Shown here one piece after another: positions 46,887 to 55,236 of a stretch of DNA of 64,000 nucleotides; positions within the stretch are counted from its first letter, which is position 1, and every line of letters starts with the position of its first letter. Position numbers and translations under genes: made by a program. The notes under the pieces are model-generated. The model searched no databases, was not told the origin of the DNA, and saw only the letters and a list, made by a program, of their open reading frames with translations. The DNA is from Ferroplasma acidiphilum (GTDB lineage: Archaea; Thermoplasmatota; Thermoplasmata; Thermoplasmatales; Thermoplasmataceae): the NCBI RefSeq assembly GCF_002078355.1, contig NZ_CP015363.1:1736001-1800000 (forward strand). Reading direction: 5' to 3'.

Positions 46887-48815
46887 TTATTTTTTGTCGA
46901 ATTTCTTCAGGGTAAAACGCCTGTTGCTCCCGAATGGTGAAAACGGCTTTCCATTTCCAAAATAAAATTTAGAGAAGAATTCCACGTATAGAAGCCTTGC
47001 GCCCTGTATGCCTGGCTCAAATACAGCTATTATTAGATTGAACAGCTGCCCTACAACCAGCACCACAACACCGATTATTATAAAATAAAATGGGTCAGAT
47101 AATGTTGCCCTGAATACGGTATCTATGACAAGGACCAGGACAACAGATGCCAGGAGTATCCCTACAATCCTTGTGTATGAAAGTATGTGTGAAATAATTG
47201 ATGGAATTTCCATAAGGCTAAGTGTGCCTTCGAAAACAACTACGGTTATAAAGCCAACTATGAGCATTACATAGCCAATAAGTGAGGATGTTTCCAGGGG
47301 GCTAAGGCTGACCCTGTGTATTAGATTAAGGCCGAGTATTGCAAAGGCCCATGCCATCAGTATCCACCCTACTTTAGCCACTGCAGCTTTTCTGTGATTT
47401 ATATATGCATTGTTAATTATTCCAAGGACGAAGCCGAAGGTGACAAAAGCAAGCCCGATATAACCGGAAATCATCAGCAATTCTCCAATATGTATGACCG
47501 GCACCGGAGTGGAACTGAGCCTGAATGGCACCGGATATATGGTAAATCCAAAGAATTCATTGAATACTATACCAAATATTATTGCGATTATTGAAGATGG
47601 TATAAGTGCTTTTGCAAGTGTTTTTAAAGAATTCTTCCCCATTATCATGAGAATAAATCCGGATAATTTTTTTGGTATATGGCTTTTTGCCGGTGGGTGG
47701 TCAACCCTGTGTATTATAAACAGTGATATCAGGAGGATAACCAGGCCGTACCCTGCGTCACCAACCATTAAACCGAAAAATACAGGGAAAACAAGGGCAA
47801 ATATCATTGTCGGATCAAATTCATACTCCTCTGGCAATGAATAGAATCTTATGAAAAATTCGAATATTTTAAAATGCTTTGGATTCGAGAGTTTTGTTGG
47901 AGGGTCTTCCTTTGTTTCTATCTTCTGGATAAACATTGTGTTATTTGAATCTTCATTAAGCACTGAAGAAACTTTTTCATATTCAGATTCGGGAATCCAT
48001 CCCTCGAGAGCAAAAGCATTTTCAGAAAAAGCAATATTGCTTAAAATTTCTTCTTCTTTCACATATATTTCAAGCTGTTCTGTTATCTGTGCCACAGGTT
48101 CATAATATTTATCTGACAATGCATTAAGGGATGATTTTATTCCCTCTATTGCGTTTGAAGCTTCATTAATGGTGTTATGGATTAATTCTATATTTTCCTT
48201 TACGGTCCCGTTCAATTCCGGGATCTTCATCATATCATAGGTTTTTGATGAAAGTATGGAAAGAAATTCTGGTTCGTTTTTTCTATTTATTGTAACGGTT
48301 GAATAGCCATTATTTAAATTGATGAATGTTGCATAATCTGTTTTGAGACTTTCAGTTTCATCTGACGATTTAATTATAAAACTTTCAACGTAATCATTAT
48401 TTAATATTGATAAATCTTCACCAAAGCCCGATAATAACTCCAGTGGTTTTAAGGTAATCTTATTTTCCTGGATCTTTGCTGTAAGTTTCTCTTCATCATC
48501 TTTGAGTTTGTTTAATTCGCCGGCTATGTATATTTTTGATATATCTTCCAGGACTTCCTCCGGAGAACTGTAGTATTTTTTATGTTTAACTTCCCTCTGT
48601 GGAAGTATTGAAAGAAATCCCTTGAACCGTGATAGATTTTCAGATAAAACCTTGTAATTGGCGTTGGAGCCCTGGGTGTTGAATACCTTTGCAACCTCAG
48701 GTTCTGCATTCTCTATCTGTATAACATTTAGATCATGCATATCATCTACTATTTTATTTTTATACGTATTCAGGCCAATAATCCTGATTTTTGTCATCTT
48801 CACGGGCTTTAGCAT
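46887..48815 (-). CDS. atpI: A-type ATP synthase subunit I (a-subunit-like stator)
   Basis: A 642-residue subunit I, the proton-channel stator of the A-type ATPase. The cytoplasmic N-terminal half (1-~330) is coiled-coil-like; the C-terminal half has about seven helices, with VGDAGYGLVILL and the conserved Arg-containing helix near SLMEIPSIISHILSYTRIVGILLAS. The ATG at 48815 (MLKPVKMTKIRIIG) is 4 bp after the atpH stop and matches the family N-terminus; a longer frame upstream overlaps atpH. It is the last gene of the operon, whereas in many archaea H and I come first. Confidence 0.93.
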   Translation of the reverse strand: MLKPVKMTKIRIIGLNTYKNKIVDDMHDLNVIQIENAEPEVAKVFNTQGSNANYKVLSENLSRFKGFLSILPQREVKHKKYYSSPEEVLEDISKIYIAGELNKLKDDEEKLTAKIQENKITLKPLELLSGFGEDLSILNNDYVESFIIKSSDETESLKTDYATFINLNNGYSTVTINRKNEPEFLSILSSKTYDMMKIPELNGTVKENIELIHNTINEASNAIEGIKSSLNALSDKYYEPVAQITEQLEIYVKEEEILSNIAFSENAFALEGWIPESEYEKVSSVLNEDSNNTMFIQKIETKEDPPTKLSNPKHFKIFEFFIRFYSLPEEYEFDPTMIFALVFPVFFGLMVGDAGYGLVILLISLFIIHRVDHPPAKSHIPKKLSGFILMIMGKNSLKTLAKALIPSSIIAIIFGIVFNEFFGFTIYPVPFRLSSTPVPVIHIGELLMISGYIGLAFVTFGFVLGIINNAYINHRKAAVAKVGWILMAWAFAILGLNLIHRVSLSPLETSSLIGYVMLIVGFITVVVFEGTLSLMEIPSIISHILSYTRIVGILLASVVLVLVIDTVFRATLSDPFYFIIIGVVVLVVGQLFNLIIAVFEPGIQGARLLYVEFFSKFYFGNGKPFSPFGSNRRFTLKKFDKK

Positions 48816-48819
48816 TTTA

Positions 48820-49143
48820 TCACATTTTAGTAATATATTCCAGAATAAGATTATACACTTTCTCTTCAAGCTTTCTGTTAGATATGTCAACTTTCATTAC
48901 ATTTGATCTGGCTCTCTGGGTATCAAGTGCATCAGCCATTTTCCTGCTTTCTGATTTCTTTATTTCCTCTATGGCTTTATTGTAATCATTTATTATTTGA
49001 TTTTCCAGGTTTTTTGCCTTTTCATTGCATTCAGCTATTTGCTGGTTTAACTGTTTTTCCATTTCCTCCTTTAGCTCTGCTATGGAACGTTTTTTTGCTT
49101 CTTCTTTGTTTTTAATTACCTTCAATTCATCTATTTCTGTCAT
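48820..49143 (-). CDS. atpH: A-type ATP synthase subunit H (peripheral stalk)
   Basis: A 107-residue, highly charged protein predicted as one long coiled coil (about 5-90) with a short globular end. It pairs with subunit E to form the peripheral stalk. Its ATG overlaps the stop of the 35-residue microprotein gene (ATGA) and it is followed by atpI after 4 bp. Confidence 0.82.
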   Translation of the reverse strand: MTEIDELKVIKNKEEAKKRSIAELKEEMEKQLNQQIAECNEKAKNLENQIINDYNKAIEEIKKSESRKMADALDTQRARSNVMKVDISNRKLEEKVYNLILEYITKM

Positions 49144-49247
49144 TTAATTATCACCATTATCAGTATTGCAATAAATGCTATTGCAAGCAGGATATTTATT
49201 ATCCGTATGATCTTTCTTATCCTTTTGAATTTTTCAACATTGCCCAT
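49140..49247 (-). CDS. 35-residue single-helix microprotein in the ATP synthase operon
   Basis: Between atpD and atpH an ATG at 49247 opens a 35-residue frame: a basic N-terminus (MGNVEKFKRIRKIIRI), one hydrophobic helix of about 18 residues (LLAIAFIAILIMVII) and a final Lys. AAGGGA lies 7-12 nt upstream as a weak ribosome site, and its TGA overlaps the atpH start. The positive-inside pattern predicts a membrane helix with cytoplasmic N-terminus. It is too short for routine gene calling. A role in assembly or as a small A-ATPase subunit is inference. Confidence 0.6.
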   Translation of the reverse strand: MGNVEKFKRIRKIIRIINILLAIAFIAILIMVIIK

Positions 49248-49279: not shown

Positions 49280-49918
49280 CTATTTATTATTTTCTCCAGT
49301 TGAAACTACATGGCTTTTTACAAATTTCAGGGTTGCAAATGAATCCCTTTCCAATTCGTCCAGATGCTCCCTGATGATTTTATAGTTGTTGTTAAACCTT
49401 GGAATCATTATATTTTCTATTGCATTGGATCTCCTGTTTGTCTTGTCTATTTCATTTAACAATTTGCGCATTGATGATTCTTTCTGGGAAACTTCCAGAA
49501 GCTCTTTGAATATTTTATTAAAGAGTGTAATTGCATCATAGATTGACACAGGAACAGAATTTGCAAGATATGAATCGTCAATTATCTTTTTTCCTGCCTG
49601 GGCTGACATTTCAGGAATTGTAACACCCATTATATTTTTCCCGCCTATTTTAATTTCTGGCGAAGAAAACATGTATGAAATTCTTTCGATTTCAAGAGTT
49701 CCATCTATTATCTCTGCCACTTTAATTGCATTCAACCCTTTTTCTATATCATTTTTGATGTTTTCTCTAAGCCCTCTGACCTCATTGCTAATTTTAAAGA
49801 ATTCCATTACCAGGGATTGTCTTTTCATTTTCAGGAGTTCGAGTCCTCTAGAAGCTACTTTTATCCGTTTTTTCGTATTTATAAGTTCTATTCTGGTAAG
49901 TCTTACAGTATTTGCCAT
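49280..49918 (-). CDS. atpD: A-type ATP synthase subunit D (central stalk)
   Basis: A 212-residue subunit D, the rotor shaft connecting the catalytic head to the c-ring. It has the two long coiled-coil helices expected, with TRIELINTKKRIKVASRGLELLKMKR near the N-terminus and a C-terminal helix with NKTNRRSNAIENIMIPRF-like residues. The ATG at 49918 overlaps the atpB stop (TAATG) behind GGAGG; an in-frame ATG at 49930 is less likely because it precedes that ribosome site. Confidence 0.93.
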   Translation of the reverse strand: MANTVRLTRIELINTKKRIKVASRGLELLKMKRQSLVMEFFKISNEVRGLRENIKNDIEKGLNAIKVAEIIDGTLEIERISYMFSSPEIKIGGKNIMGVTIPEMSAQAGKKIIDDSYLANSVPVSIYDAITLFNKIFKELLEVSQKESSMRKLLNEIDKTNRRSNAIENIMIPRFNNNYKIIREHLDELERDSFATLKFVKSHVVSTGENNK

Positions 49919-51294
49919 TATTCCTCCCATTTCCCGTATTTTGGTATATATGCGGATTTTACCTTTTTCATTTCCTCTTTAGGCAAAATTGAAAGCAGGT
50001 CCCATCCAAGATTCAAAGTTTCTTCTATGGAACGGTCAGTATCTCCCTGGTTTACGTATTTGCTTTCAAAATCCTCTGCAAATTGAAGGTACTTTTTATC
50101 TGATACACTCAAAGCTTCTTCGCCAACAATCTCACTTAATGCTCTGGCGTCTTTTCCCTTTGCATATGAGGAATATAGCTGATCGGCCAGGCCTCTGTGG
50201 TCTTCCCTGGTATGGTCAGACCCTATACCCTGGTTCATGAGACGTGATAAGGATAAAAGGACATCTACCTCTGGATATATATCCTTCCTGCTAAGGTCTC
50301 TTGATAGTGTTATCTGCCCTTCAGTTATATATCCTGTAAGGTCAGGCACCGGGTTTGTTATATCATCCCCTGGCATTGTAAGAATAGGTATCTGTGTGAT
50401 TGAGCCGTTCCTTCCCTTTATTTTTCCTGCCCTTTCATATATTGTACTTAAATCGGTATACATATAGCCAGGATATCCACGCCTTCCAGGGATTTCCTCC
50501 CTTGAAGATGATATTTCACGGAGTGCTTCACAGTAATTTGTCATATCTGTGAGGATAACCAGCATGTTCATATCTTTCTCATATGCCAGGTATTCTGCAG
50601 TTGTTAATGCAACACGGGGCAGTATTATCCTGTCCATGGATGGATCTGATGCCAGATTCAGGAATATTACGGATTCTGACAGTGCGCCTGACGACTCAAA
50701 TTGCTTCATGAAATAGTTTGCTTCCTCACTTGTTATTCCAATAGCGCCAAATACAACACCAAATTTTTCTCCGCCTTTCAGGGTTTTTGCCTGCTTCGCT
50801 ATCTGTGTCGCCAGCCTGTTATGGGATAATCCTGCTCCAGAGAATATTGGAAGCTTTTGTCCCATAACAAGTGTATTCATTCCATCTATGGTTGATATTC
50901 CCGTTTCTATGAATTCACTTGGCTCTTCACGTGAATATGGATTGATTGCAGCACCTGTGATATCTACCTTATCCTTTGAATAAATCTTCGGGCCATTGTC
51001 TACCGGTTCACCGAATCCATTGAATATTCTGCCAAGCATATCATCAGATACTGGAAGCTTGAATGTGCTTCCTGTGAACGATACCCCGGTACTCTTTGGG
51101 CTCATGCTGGTAGTTGAACCGAACACCTGGACAACCGCAACGCCGTTCCTGGTTTCAAGTACCTGGCCTTTAACACGCTCTCCGTTATCCAGTATTATGC
51201 TAACAATTTCATTATACGATGCATTTTTCACGTCGTCCACAAATAGAAGTGGACCATTTATCTGTGAAATTGACCTGTAAATAATATCAGACAC
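49918..51294 (-). CDS. atpB: A-type ATP synthase subunit B (regulatory)
   Basis: A 458-residue non-catalytic subunit B of the head. It lacks a canonical Walker A, as expected, and includes [36 protein letters not shown], and [34 protein letters not shown]. The GTG at 51294 is chosen because GGAGG ends 9 nt upstream and the protein then starts like its relatives; frames from 51303 overlap that site. It overlaps atpA by 8 bp. Confidence 0.95.
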
Positions 51295-53056
51295 TTTCAA
51301 CACCCTCCATTATATTATCATATTCATTATTTATTTCCTTTATCACGTCATTGTAGAATTTCTCAAAGTCGTTTTCTGGAATTTCTTTCATTCTTGATAT
51401 TTTCATCCTCACAGGAAGTGTTGCAGTCTGGGTTAACTTCAATCCAGAAGCTATGGATTTTTCCTGCATTTCATTAAGTGTTTTAATAATTGTAAGCATT
51501 TCATACTGTTTCTTTATTGAACAGTATGTATCTGTATCATCAAAGGCATTCTGCTGGAGAAAATCTTCCCTGATAATCTTTGCAATGTCCAGAACGTTTT
51601 TCTGATTCTCTGGCAATGAGTCATATCCCACCAGCTGCACAATTTCCTGTAACTCTGATTCTTTCTGGAGTATACCCATCATGAGTGAATGCATCTGTGG
51701 CCATTCAGGGTTCACGTTTGATTTAAACCACCCGGAAAGGGAGTCCAGGTAAAGCGAATAGCTGTTAAGCCAGTTAATTGAAGGAAAATGCCTTCTGGAT
51801 GCAAGTGAGGCGTCAAGAGCCCAGAATGCCCTTGTAACTCTCAAGGTATTCTGCACAACAGGGTCTGAAAGGTCTCCACCTGGAGGCGATACTGCTCCTA
51901 TAAGGGTTATAGAGCCTGTCCTTTCATCCTGTGCTATTATCTGGGCATTTCCAGATCTTTCATAAAATTCAGATATTCTCCTTCCCAGATAGGCAGGATA
52001 TCCTTCTTCACCTGGCATTTCTTCCAATCTTCCAGATATTTCCCTCAGTGCCTCTGCCCACCTGCTTGTTGAATCTGCCATAAGAGCTACGTCATAACCC
52101 ATATCCCTGTAATATTCAGCTATGGTAACTCCTGTATAAATACTGGCTTCCCTTGCTGCCACAGGCATATTGGAAGTATTTGCAATAAGTATTGTTTTTT
52201 CCATGAGTGGTTTTCCGCTCTTGGGATCTTGCAGTTCAGGGAATGTTGAAAGTATTTCAGTCATCTCATTTCCCCTTTCCCCGCAGCCAACATAAACGGT
52301 TATATCTGCATCAGACCATTTGGACAGCTGGTGCTGTATTACTGTCTTCCCGCTTCCAAATGGGCCCGGAACTGCTACAGTGCCGCCCTTAGCAACAGGG
52401 AAGAATGAATCTATTACCCTCTGGCCTGTGATTAATGGTATTTCAGGTGCAAATTTAAGAAATACCTTTCTTGCCTGCCTGACAGGCCATATCTGCTTCA
52501 ATTTTATATCATATTTGGAAGTTCCAGTGTCGATTATACATACAGTATCAGATACTTTGAATTTTCCTTTGCTTATGCTTTTTATTATGCCACGAATGCC
52601 ATACGGAACCATAATTTTATGGGTTATTATATTAGTTTCCTGAACTGTGCCAAGTATATATCCCTGCTCAACTTCATCCCCTTCCTTTAACAGTGGAACG
52701 AAATCCCATTCTTTCTTTTCATCCAGTGGAGGTGCTGTTGCCCCCCTGACTATAAAATCACCTGTTTCTGATTGAATTATATCAAGAGGCCTCTGTATTC
52801 CATCATATATGGATTTAAGCAGGCCCGGGCCAAGTTCGACAGAGAGGGGTTTGCCTGTTGAATATACAGGTTCGCCTGGTTTGAGCCCGCTGGTATCTTC
52901 ATAAACCTGGATTGTAAATTTATCTCCAACTATTTTTATAACTTCACCTACGAGGCCCATTTCACCAACCCGTACCACATCAAACATTTTGCCATCAAGG
53001 TCTGTTGCTATTACTACCGGTCCAGATATACTATATATACTTCCTTTATTTTCCAT
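51287..53056 (-). CDS. atpA: A-type ATP synthase subunit A (catalytic)
   Basis: A 589-residue catalytic subunit with P-loop GPFGSGKT (231-238), the bulge domain, and the Walker B/Arg-finger region around [32 protein letters not shown]. Thermoplasma and Picrophilus homologues are known to carry an intein at the P-loop; here the loop is uninterrupted, so the copy is intein-free. Start codon follows atpF's stop directly on the same strand. Confidence 0.97.
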
Positions 53057-53365
53057 TTAATCACCAATATCAATGCCCAAAATTTTTTTTGCCAGATCGT
53101 ATACCGATTCCTCTTCTTTTATTCCTGGCAGGGGAATAAATATTACAAGCGGGCTAATAGACCCTGCGTATAAGTTTATTTCATCGGGGGTCATATACTT
53201 TTCAAATGATTGTGAAACCATAATCACATTATATTTCTTTGAATTGAACAATTCTTTTACAATGGATTTCCCATTTTCAGGGTCTGCAGTAAATGTATCG
53301 TTGATTCCTACTAATTTAAAGCCTGCTACAAGTTCCCTTTCCCCTATCAAACAAAGATCGTACAT
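53057..53365 (-). CDS. atpF: A-type ATP synthase subunit F (central stalk)
   Basis: A 102-residue Rossmann-like subunit F that sits at the central stalk with D. It includes LIGERELVAGFKLVGI and the IFIPLPG segment typical of the family. Its ATG is right after the atpC stop (TAAATG), and its stop abuts the atpA start. Confidence 0.92.
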   Translation of the reverse strand: MYDLCLIGERELVAGFKLVGINDTFTADPENGKSIVKELFNSKKYNVIMVSQSFEKYMTPDEINLYAGSISPLVIFIPLPGIKEEESVYDLAKKILGIDIGD

Positions 53366-54427
53366 TTAAATCAGCATCCTCTCTATTGTATTATTATCAA
53401 GCTTATATGACTTGCCTATTATTATTGTCCTGAGATTATCACGTTCTCTTTCTGCATAGAGGATATATGCAAAAATAAAGAGAGATGCTGTGTCCCTGAT
53501 CATTACCGGGACGAATTCATGGAATAATGACTTTCTCATGCCTATCTCAAACTGGCTCAGATTTTTATTTTCTTTATAGTAATCCAGAGCTTCATCTATG
53601 TTAAAATGCTTAAAAAGTGAAAGCAGCTCAATAACACTTCCAGACCTGAAAGTATCAGAAAGTGCTGTTCTGGAAAAATTGCCATTATCTATAATACTGT
53701 TTTCTATTTTTTCAAATGGAACGTTGAGCTCAATTGCCTTTGCCAGTGTAAGAATATTCTTTAAATCCACCACGGTTTTTACATATTTAATAATCTGCCC
53801 TTCATCCCCATTATAGAACAATGCGGTTTTAATAAGGTCATTATAATAACGGTAATCCATAGCTGATAGGAGGGATGATGTATCTCCTGTCTTCTTGTAT
53901 TCTTCCAGCTCTTTCAGCAGATAATTAAAACCGTAATTGAGAAGGTAATTAATCACAGAATCCACGTCGTTTTTTTCCATTATAGCCCTGAAATCATCTC
54001 GCTTCAGGTTTCCTGCATATATTCCCATAGGGATATCCCTGAAACTCATTATGAAACTGTCATTATATTTTATATCGTGGTGTATAACTTTAGAAGTAAT
54101 AATCGCCTTTATACTTTCTATATCCCATTTCGATACATATGATTTCATAAACGATTTTATCTGGGGCGGGACTGCGAACAGTGCTATTTTAGCATTGTTT
54201 ATCACATGCCGGTTAATTGCTGTAATCAGAATATCCACATCATCATTGCTTATTGTTGTAGCTTTATCTATATCATCGCGGTATGATGTCTCATATAATT
54301 TCAACCTTATATCTTTAATATCAAGTTCAAGAAGTGATTTTACAAAACTATCGCTAAGATAATCATTGAAATGTATCTTTAACCTTCCATAACTTCCTGA
54401 ATATGTAGTGTTAATTGGAACCACCAT
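53366..54427 (-). CDS. atpC: A-type ATP synthase subunit C (rotor-to-ring adaptor)
   Basis: A 353-residue subunit C, related to yeast subunit d, that joins the central stalk to the membrane ring. It is largely helical with three repeated helical units; the segment LRTIIIGKSYKLDNNTIERML at the end is a family hallmark. The start codon overlaps the atpE stop (TAATG). Confidence 0.9.
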   Translation of the reverse strand: MVVPINTTYSGSYGRLKIHFNDYLSDSFVKSLLELDIKDIRLKLYETSYRDDIDKATTISNDDVDILITAINRHVINNAKIALFAVPPQIKSFMKSYVSKWDIESIKAIITSKVIHHDIKYNDSFIMSFRDIPMGIYAGNLKRDDFRAIMEKNDVDSVINYLLNYGFNYLLKELEEYKKTGDTSSLLSAMDYRYYNDLIKTALFYNGDEGQIIKYVKTVVDLKNILTLAKAIELNVPFEKIENSIIDNGNFSRTALSDTFRSGSVIELLSLFKHFNIDEALDYYKENKNLSQFEIGMRKSLFHEFVPVMIRDTASLFIFAYILYAERERDNLRTIIIGKSYKLDNNTIERMLI

Positions 54428-54996
54428 TATTTAATATTTTCATATAGATATGTTTCTACATCGTATGAAATTTCATCAAAAATACTGCTTAAGCGCATAT
54501 CTACTTCTTTTTTCCCATCTGCACTGACCGCTATAATTCCAGATTTTATTGATTTGTCTATAATAAATTTAATTGAATCCGGGAATTTAAAACCCTGAAG
54601 TTTCTCGTTTTCCATTTCATCACAGTATACGGTGAACTTATTCCCAAGTTCTTTTTTCGATTCATTAACCATAGCTTTTAGCAATTCAGGGTAATTGGAA
54701 GATTTGTTAAGTGATGTGACATAAGACCTTAGTTTTTGCATAGTGTTAACCAGTATTTCCTTTTTTTTGTCATCAATGATTTTTTTTGACTGCAATCTAA
54801 TATTGTCCTCGTACTGCTTTATTATATTCTTAACATCATTATCAGATTTTACAGCATAGTAATTCTTAATCCTGGATATTTTATCATTGCAGGATTTTAT
54901 AATAGCCTCTATTTTGGCAGAATACTCATCTCTTATGGCTTTGAGCTCTGCCTGGGTCGTATTATCTATCTCATTTAATATATTTTCAAGTGACAT
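54427..54996 (-). CDS. atpE: A-type ATP synthase subunit E (peripheral stalk)
   Basis: A 189-residue subunit E: a long N-terminal coiled coil (about 1-95) and a C-terminal globular domain (~100-189) with the GIIAVSADGKKEVDMRLSS-like segment that binds subunits A/B. It pairs with H in the peripheral stalk. It starts 12 bp downstream of atpK. Confidence 0.9.
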   Translation of the reverse strand: MSLENILNEIDNTTQAELKAIRDEYSAKIEAIIKSCNDKISRIKNYYAVKSDNDVKNIIKQYEDNIRLQSKKIIDDKKKEILVNTMQKLRSYVTSLNKSSNYPELLKAMVNESKKELGNKFTVYCDEMENEKLQGFKFPDSIKFIIDKSIKSGIIAVSADGKKEVDMRLSSIFDEISYDVETYLYENIK

Positions 54997-55008: not shown

Positions 55009-55236
55009 TTATATTACGTGCAACAGTAATATAATTCCCAGAACAAAACCAATAATCCACAGGGTTTCCGGTATTACAAAGAAAAACAATACCTGACCAA
55101 ATTTTTCTGGTTTTTCTGCAATTATACCCATTCCAGCAGCTCCGATACCCTGTTGAGCCATCCCAGTTCCAATCAATCCGCCGGCAATGGCAATTGAAGC
55201 TGCCAAAGCCAATATAGCATCCGGTGTAGTAATCAT
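55009..55236 (-). CDS. atpK: A-type ATP synthase subunit K (proteolipid ring)
   Basis: A 75-residue two-helix proteolipid (c subunit) of the rotor. The Gly/Ala-rich first helix (ALAASIAIAGGLIGTGMAQQG) and the second helix with the ion-binding Glu in VIPETLWIIG are clear. It is a single hairpin, so the ring would have many copies. As the first gene of the operon it is preceded by a TATA-like run at 55262-55270, suggesting a leaderless start. Confidence 0.95.
   Translation of the reverse strand: MITTPDAILALAASIAIAGGLIGTGMAQQGIGAAGMGIIAEKPEKFGQVLFFFVIPETLWIIGFVLGIILLLHVI

Follow-up and report, generated by a model that had tools for sequence, protein, structure and literature searches.

The ATP synthase operon and its small frame

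The window, which is the whole stretch of 64,000 nucleotides of Ferroplasma acidiphilum DNA that was analysed, contains an A-type ATP synthase operon on the minus strand, with the gene order K-E-C-F-A-B-D-microprotein-H-I and the following features.

55009..55236, minus strand: atpK, c-ring proteolipid, named from its sequence and operon place
54427..54996, minus strand: atpE, named from its operon place
53366..54427, minus strand: atpC, named from its operon place
53057..53365, minus strand: atpF, named from its operon place
51287..53056, minus strand: atpA, named from its sequence and operon place
49918..51303, minus strand: atpB
49280..49930, minus strand: atpD, central-stalk subunit D (PF01813, E = 1e-47), with its true start probably at the ATG at 49915
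49140..49247, minus strand: microprotein gene in the slot between atpD and atpH, 35 aa, one predicted transmembrane helix with the N-terminus inside
48820..49143, minus strand: atpH, peripheral-stalk coiled coil, the H/G of papers on the acidophile ATPase
46887..48890, minus strand: atpI, membrane stator subunit; the listed open reading frame begins at an upstream TTG

The true start of atpI probably lies near 48818, directly after atpH. The sequence-only reading of this DNA had placed a frame between atpD and atpH, naming no strand, and described it as overlapping the atpH start (ATGA) and filling the only gap of more than 100 bp in the operon. All of this was borne out: the frame is read from 49247 to 49140 on the minus strand, its TGA (49142-49140) overlaps the atpH ATG (49143-49141), and the atpD stop and the atpH start are 136 nt apart, while the other junctions overlap, abut or leave 12 nt or less. 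The product is MGNVEKFKRIRKIIRIINILLAIAFIAILIMVIIK (35 aa). An in-frame TTG upstream of the ATG would lengthen it to 45 aa; the start at 49247 is conserved in close relatives, with ATG in nine of ten genomes and GTG in one.

The microprotein frame is a conserved gene under purifying selection

For the comparison we took this slot from nine genomes of the genus and from one of a sister genus. The frame has 35 codons in all ten, with zero indels and zero internal stops, and the other two frames of the same strand contain 84 and 35 stops. Compared to these two frames (pN/pS 0.61 and 0.99), pN/pS was lower in the microprotein frame (0.32), and parsimony assigned 35, 16, and 59 changes to codon positions 1, 2, and 3, respectively (p = 3e-6), which is the synonymous-site bias that the sequence-only reading had proposed as a check. 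Amino-acid similarity reached 3.48, above every one of 1000 column shuffles (mean 2.03, sd 0.26). In several other lineages, fifteen further pairs gave pN/pS values of 0 to 0.61; within each pair the synonymous divergence of the slot gene was mostly near that of atpD, and amino-acid constraint was weaker on the slot protein than on atpD. When atpD-atpH gaps were shuffled by dinucleotide, frames like this one, with 30 codons or more, a hydropathy of at least 2.0 and an end near atpH, appeared in 0.4% of trials on average. We rejected a spacer or chance frame on the codon and shuffle tests. The microprotein is encoded by a genuine gene that is conserved and evolves under purifying selection.

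The slot is filled in nearly all sampled Thermoplasmatota with the D-H-I order

To sample the slot more widely, AtpD was searched in relatives and across the phylum, the downstream DNA was fetched and the slot was read, with families numbered by the tool. The frame in relatives for which the sequence-only reading had suggested a search was found: a one-helix frame occupies the atpD-atpH slot in 56 of the 57 sampled genomes with the D-H-I order. By family, among loci with atpH and atpI after atpD, the slot was filled in 36/36 (f1, with the window-type proteins), 8/8 (f3), 5/5 (f4), and 7/8 (f7). The gaps in f7 are GC-rich (64-78% GC), so the hydrophobic frame is no by-product of AT-rich DNA. 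Family f7 appears to correspond to the Lutacidiplasmatales, judging from PMC9287336, which also reports another atp gene order for that group. The sole sampled D-H-I locus without a small frame, L186 (genome G096, f7), has atpD running straight into atpH. Two assemblies, G010 (contigs C4 and C6) and G060 (C23 and C2), carry two atpD copies each, possibly reflecting two ATPase operons or mixed bins.

Outside this operon type, about half of the other Thermoplasmatota sampled have a one-helix frame after atpD, as do most of the Methanosarcinales sampled, and the earlier suggestion of a protein specific to this lineage was thus too narrow. Among the sampled genomes, the post-atpD slot holds no such frame in Methanomicrobiales, Methanoperedens, and many Thermoplasmatota, indicating that the frame is not universally needed. 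As a negative control we used lineages that lack the gene, Methanomicrobiales among them, and these rarely hold any hydrophobic frame in the slot. No acidophile operon from outside Thermoplasmatota was found in the viral contigs scanned.

Slot proteins are short, with a basic flank and one predicted helix

Searched over whole genomes, profile A1 returned the slot as its only strong match, with E-values down to 2e-20. The slot match in the window's own genome had E = 1.8e-8, and genomes left out of the A1 alignment were matched at the slot with values of 2e-8 to 4e-11. The profile misses a few diverged slot proteins. Strongly diverged members were seen at L025 and L026 (g3), L030 and L031 (g12), and L044-L047 (f4); most of the diverged proteins score weakly with the family profile, and slot, length, and helix are retained. 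Slot proteins are 35 aa long in the window and 30-63 aa in relatives.

The basic N-terminus and single hydrophobic helix described in the sequence-only reading were recovered. The AlphaFold model of the microprotein is one continuous helix over residues 4-34 (mean pLDDT 91), and Lys and Arg are richer before the helix than after it in all family members counted (47/47, 61/61, and 8/8), so that the N-terminus is probably cytoplasmic. In the window group an invariant Phe lies ahead of the helix, within an F-x2-I/V-R/K motif, and the helix itself contains a nearly invariant Asn. The window-type proteins are a group of their own that evolves fast; hhalign joins those of f1 with f7 in one family (z = 9.6), to which f3 is more weakly linked (z = 3.6). 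Pfam and NCBIfam scans of the microprotein, Methanosarcina AhaG, and their relatives gave chance-level matches only, and PDB profile searches found no solved chain matching the window-type or AhaG family.

AhaG occupies the corresponding slot in Methanosarcina

The sequence-only reading took A-type ATPases to lack a protein of this kind. This did not hold, since Methanosarcina AhaG, subunit G of the A1AO ATP synthase, has the same slot after ahaD and the same topology. AhaG of Methanosarcina mazei is a 6.3-kDa hydrophobic protein, its gene lies right after ahaD, and its role is disputed (PMC4350412). An AhaG band was seen upon heterologous expression in Escherichia coli, the subcomplexes purified from E. 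coli held no subunits other than A, B, C, D, and F, AhaG was not recovered in M. mazei proteomics, and its expression and association with the ATPase are disputed (PMC4350412). The main text of a mazei Ribo-seq paper does not mention aha genes (PMC11456600). A 2013 paper reported AhaG as absent from acid-mine Thermoplasmatales and T. acidophilum (PMC3750248), whereas we found the Thermoplasmatales-type slot filled in nearly every operon sampled.

We read AhaG from named Methanosarcinales loci, fetched with the solved M. mazei AhaB sequence, and it follows ahaD in the loci compared. Homologues of AhaG are widespread in Thermoplasmatota: against post-atpD proteins of other Thermoplasmatota, hhalign gave a probability of 99% (z = 23.5 relative to permuted columns, the permutations keeping the helix block). 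The post-atpD proteins of family f5 are homologous to AhaG too, with a weaker match (82%, z = 4.7, 0/100 permutations), and not significantly so to the window type (z = 1.2, score reached by 17/150 permutations). Between AhaG and the window type, the profile-profile probability was 8-11% (z = 1.9), with the score reached by 7/150 permuted alignments. Because this direct hhalign comparison was non-significant once calibrated, we do not claim sequence homology of the two; homology is suggested by slot, size, and topology, and not by sequence. Loci of Methanoperedens-like archaea and Methanomicrobiales (L105, L106, L109-L111, L119, and L140-L170 except L153 and L157) had no AhaG-like frame after ahaD, so a large share of the methanogens and their relatives has lost AhaG or lacks it.

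A score no better than composition allows means that the window-type protein could be an unrelated slot replacement, a lineage-specific protein that came to occupy the slot at the origin of the acidophile operon type, whether or not it does the same job. We regard this as a serious but minority possibility. Besides the lack of a significant sequence link, it draws on gene order, since PMC9287336 gives H-I-K-E-C-F-A-B-D-G for methanogens and K-E-C-F-A-B-D-x-H-I, the order also seen here, for Thermoplasmatales, and on the placement of the acidophile ATPase in another clade that spread by horizontal transfer, as described in PMC6863869 and PMC9287336. It is weakened by the agreement with AhaG in slot, size, and orientation, by the AhaG-like protein that follows atpD in f5, from the same taxonomic order as the window, and by the quick fading of recognisable similarity in single-helix proteins. 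In the reading we favour, the microprotein and AhaG would share a common ancestor.

The small gene stays with atpD

In four f5 genomes (L200-L203 in G040, G044, G047, and G055), atpD stands alone, no other window Atp protein having a match within about 7 kb, and an AhaG-type small gene still lies directly after the isolated atpD. Family f5 is probably Aciduliprofundum-like, and a displaced D was reported for this kind of lineage in PMC9287336. More generally, the small gene remains directly after atpD across lineages with differing gene order. This is the best clue to function, and points to an interaction with subunit D or with the site on the membrane ring where D is seated.

Proposed role of the microprotein

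The microprotein is coding, conserved, and bound to the slot after atpD, and by prediction it spans the membrane. Its most probable explanation, in which we have reasonable though not full confidence, is a one-helix ATP synthase microprotein with its N-terminus inside, standing in the place of AhaG and acting as an accessory subunit or assembly factor that docks the central stalk. Most likely it would be translated together with atpD and atpH. Its site of action would be the membrane part of the enzyme, where this small subunit or assembly factor would serve to dock the central stalk, formed by D together with C and F, onto the c-ring. The protein presumably belongs to the complex or helps to build it, and its partner would be D or the foot of D on the ring. 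The invariant Phe and nearly invariant Asn of the window group, like the invariant Gly of the AhaG group, fit the packing of a helix against another membrane subunit, which leads us to favour the D/C foot or the c-ring as the probable site of such an accessory subunit or assembly factor. From sequence, the role of small subunit or assembly factor offered by the sequence-only reading is plausible.

An alternative that we consider improbable is that the microprotein is neither subunit nor assembly factor, and instead curbs ATP hydrolysis or proton flow under stress as a small regulatory protein. F-type enzymes have such small proteins, among them the cyanobacterial inhibitor AtpTheta (cited in PMC11456600); acidophiles live with a steep proton gradient, and the microprotein sequence evolves fast. 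The gene, however, lies inside the operon between two structural genes and overlaps atpH, an arrangement that suggests constant co-expression, and the protein is hardly more than a membrane-spanning helix. That the frame is untranslated and the conserved gap a leader or spacing element for atpH is very improbable: AT-rich DNA easily yields small hydrophobic frames, but the codon-position bias, the lack of frame-breaking indels, the frames in GC-rich relatives, and the low rate in shuffles all speak against it.

Returning to the accessory subunit or assembly factor, a slot that is nearly always filled and under selection, along with the retention of an AhaG-type gene beside a displaced atpD, makes it possible to test whether archaeal rotary ATPases contain a one-helix component at the central stalk that has been overlooked. 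PMC6863869 and PMC9287336 describe the V-type-like ATPases of acidophiles as nine-subunit complexes whose operon has passed between Thermoplasmatales, Thaumarchaeota, Micrarchaeota, Parvarchaeota, and Marsarchaeota; in the sections consulted, neither paper counts the small gene. We raise, tentatively, the bolder proposal that a membrane subunit has gone unrecognised in the acidophile ATPase, which would then have ten subunits: the additional one would bind the central stalk, move between phyla together with the operon, and correspond to AhaG. If accepted, the slot gene would revise the gene content of the acidophile operon. The slot family is missing from annotation libraries, and is now flagged.

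Comparison with known small ATPase proteins

AtpZ has two helices, and AtpI more. Like the microprotein, both are small membrane proteins encoded in ATP synthase operons, and both are proposed assembly helpers. They belong to F-type operons, however, and have two or more helices, while the microprotein belongs to an A-type operon and has one predicted helix. The likeness drawn in the sequence-only reading was not supported; we rejected AtpI or AtpZ identity on helix number, and the Pfam and NCBIfam scans revealed no similarity to either. Subunit H/G of the acidophile V-type-like ATPase is encoded by a neighbouring gene of the same operon. It is a soluble coiled-coil protein of the peripheral stalk, namely the atpH product, and is distinct from AhaG. 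We rejected the microprotein as subunit H/G, since it is a hydrophobic one-helix protein and the adjoining atpH fills that role.

The AhaG-type proteins of f5 resemble the microprotein in lying directly after atpD, in having one helix, and in being under purifying selection, and differ in that atpD and the small gene are apart from the other atp genes. AhaG itself differs from the window group in its consensus, approximately PExxARxxxxxWIISLxMLVLG with an invariant Gly, and its gene ends its operon, whereas the microprotein gene has atpH and atpI after it. In other respects the two agree: each gene lies immediately downstream of atpD/ahaD, each protein is small (about 45-60 aa for AhaG and 35 aa here, with up to 63 aa in relatives), Pfam and NCBIfam offer no model for either family, and each protein has one predicted helix with the N-terminus inside and a basic N-terminal flank.
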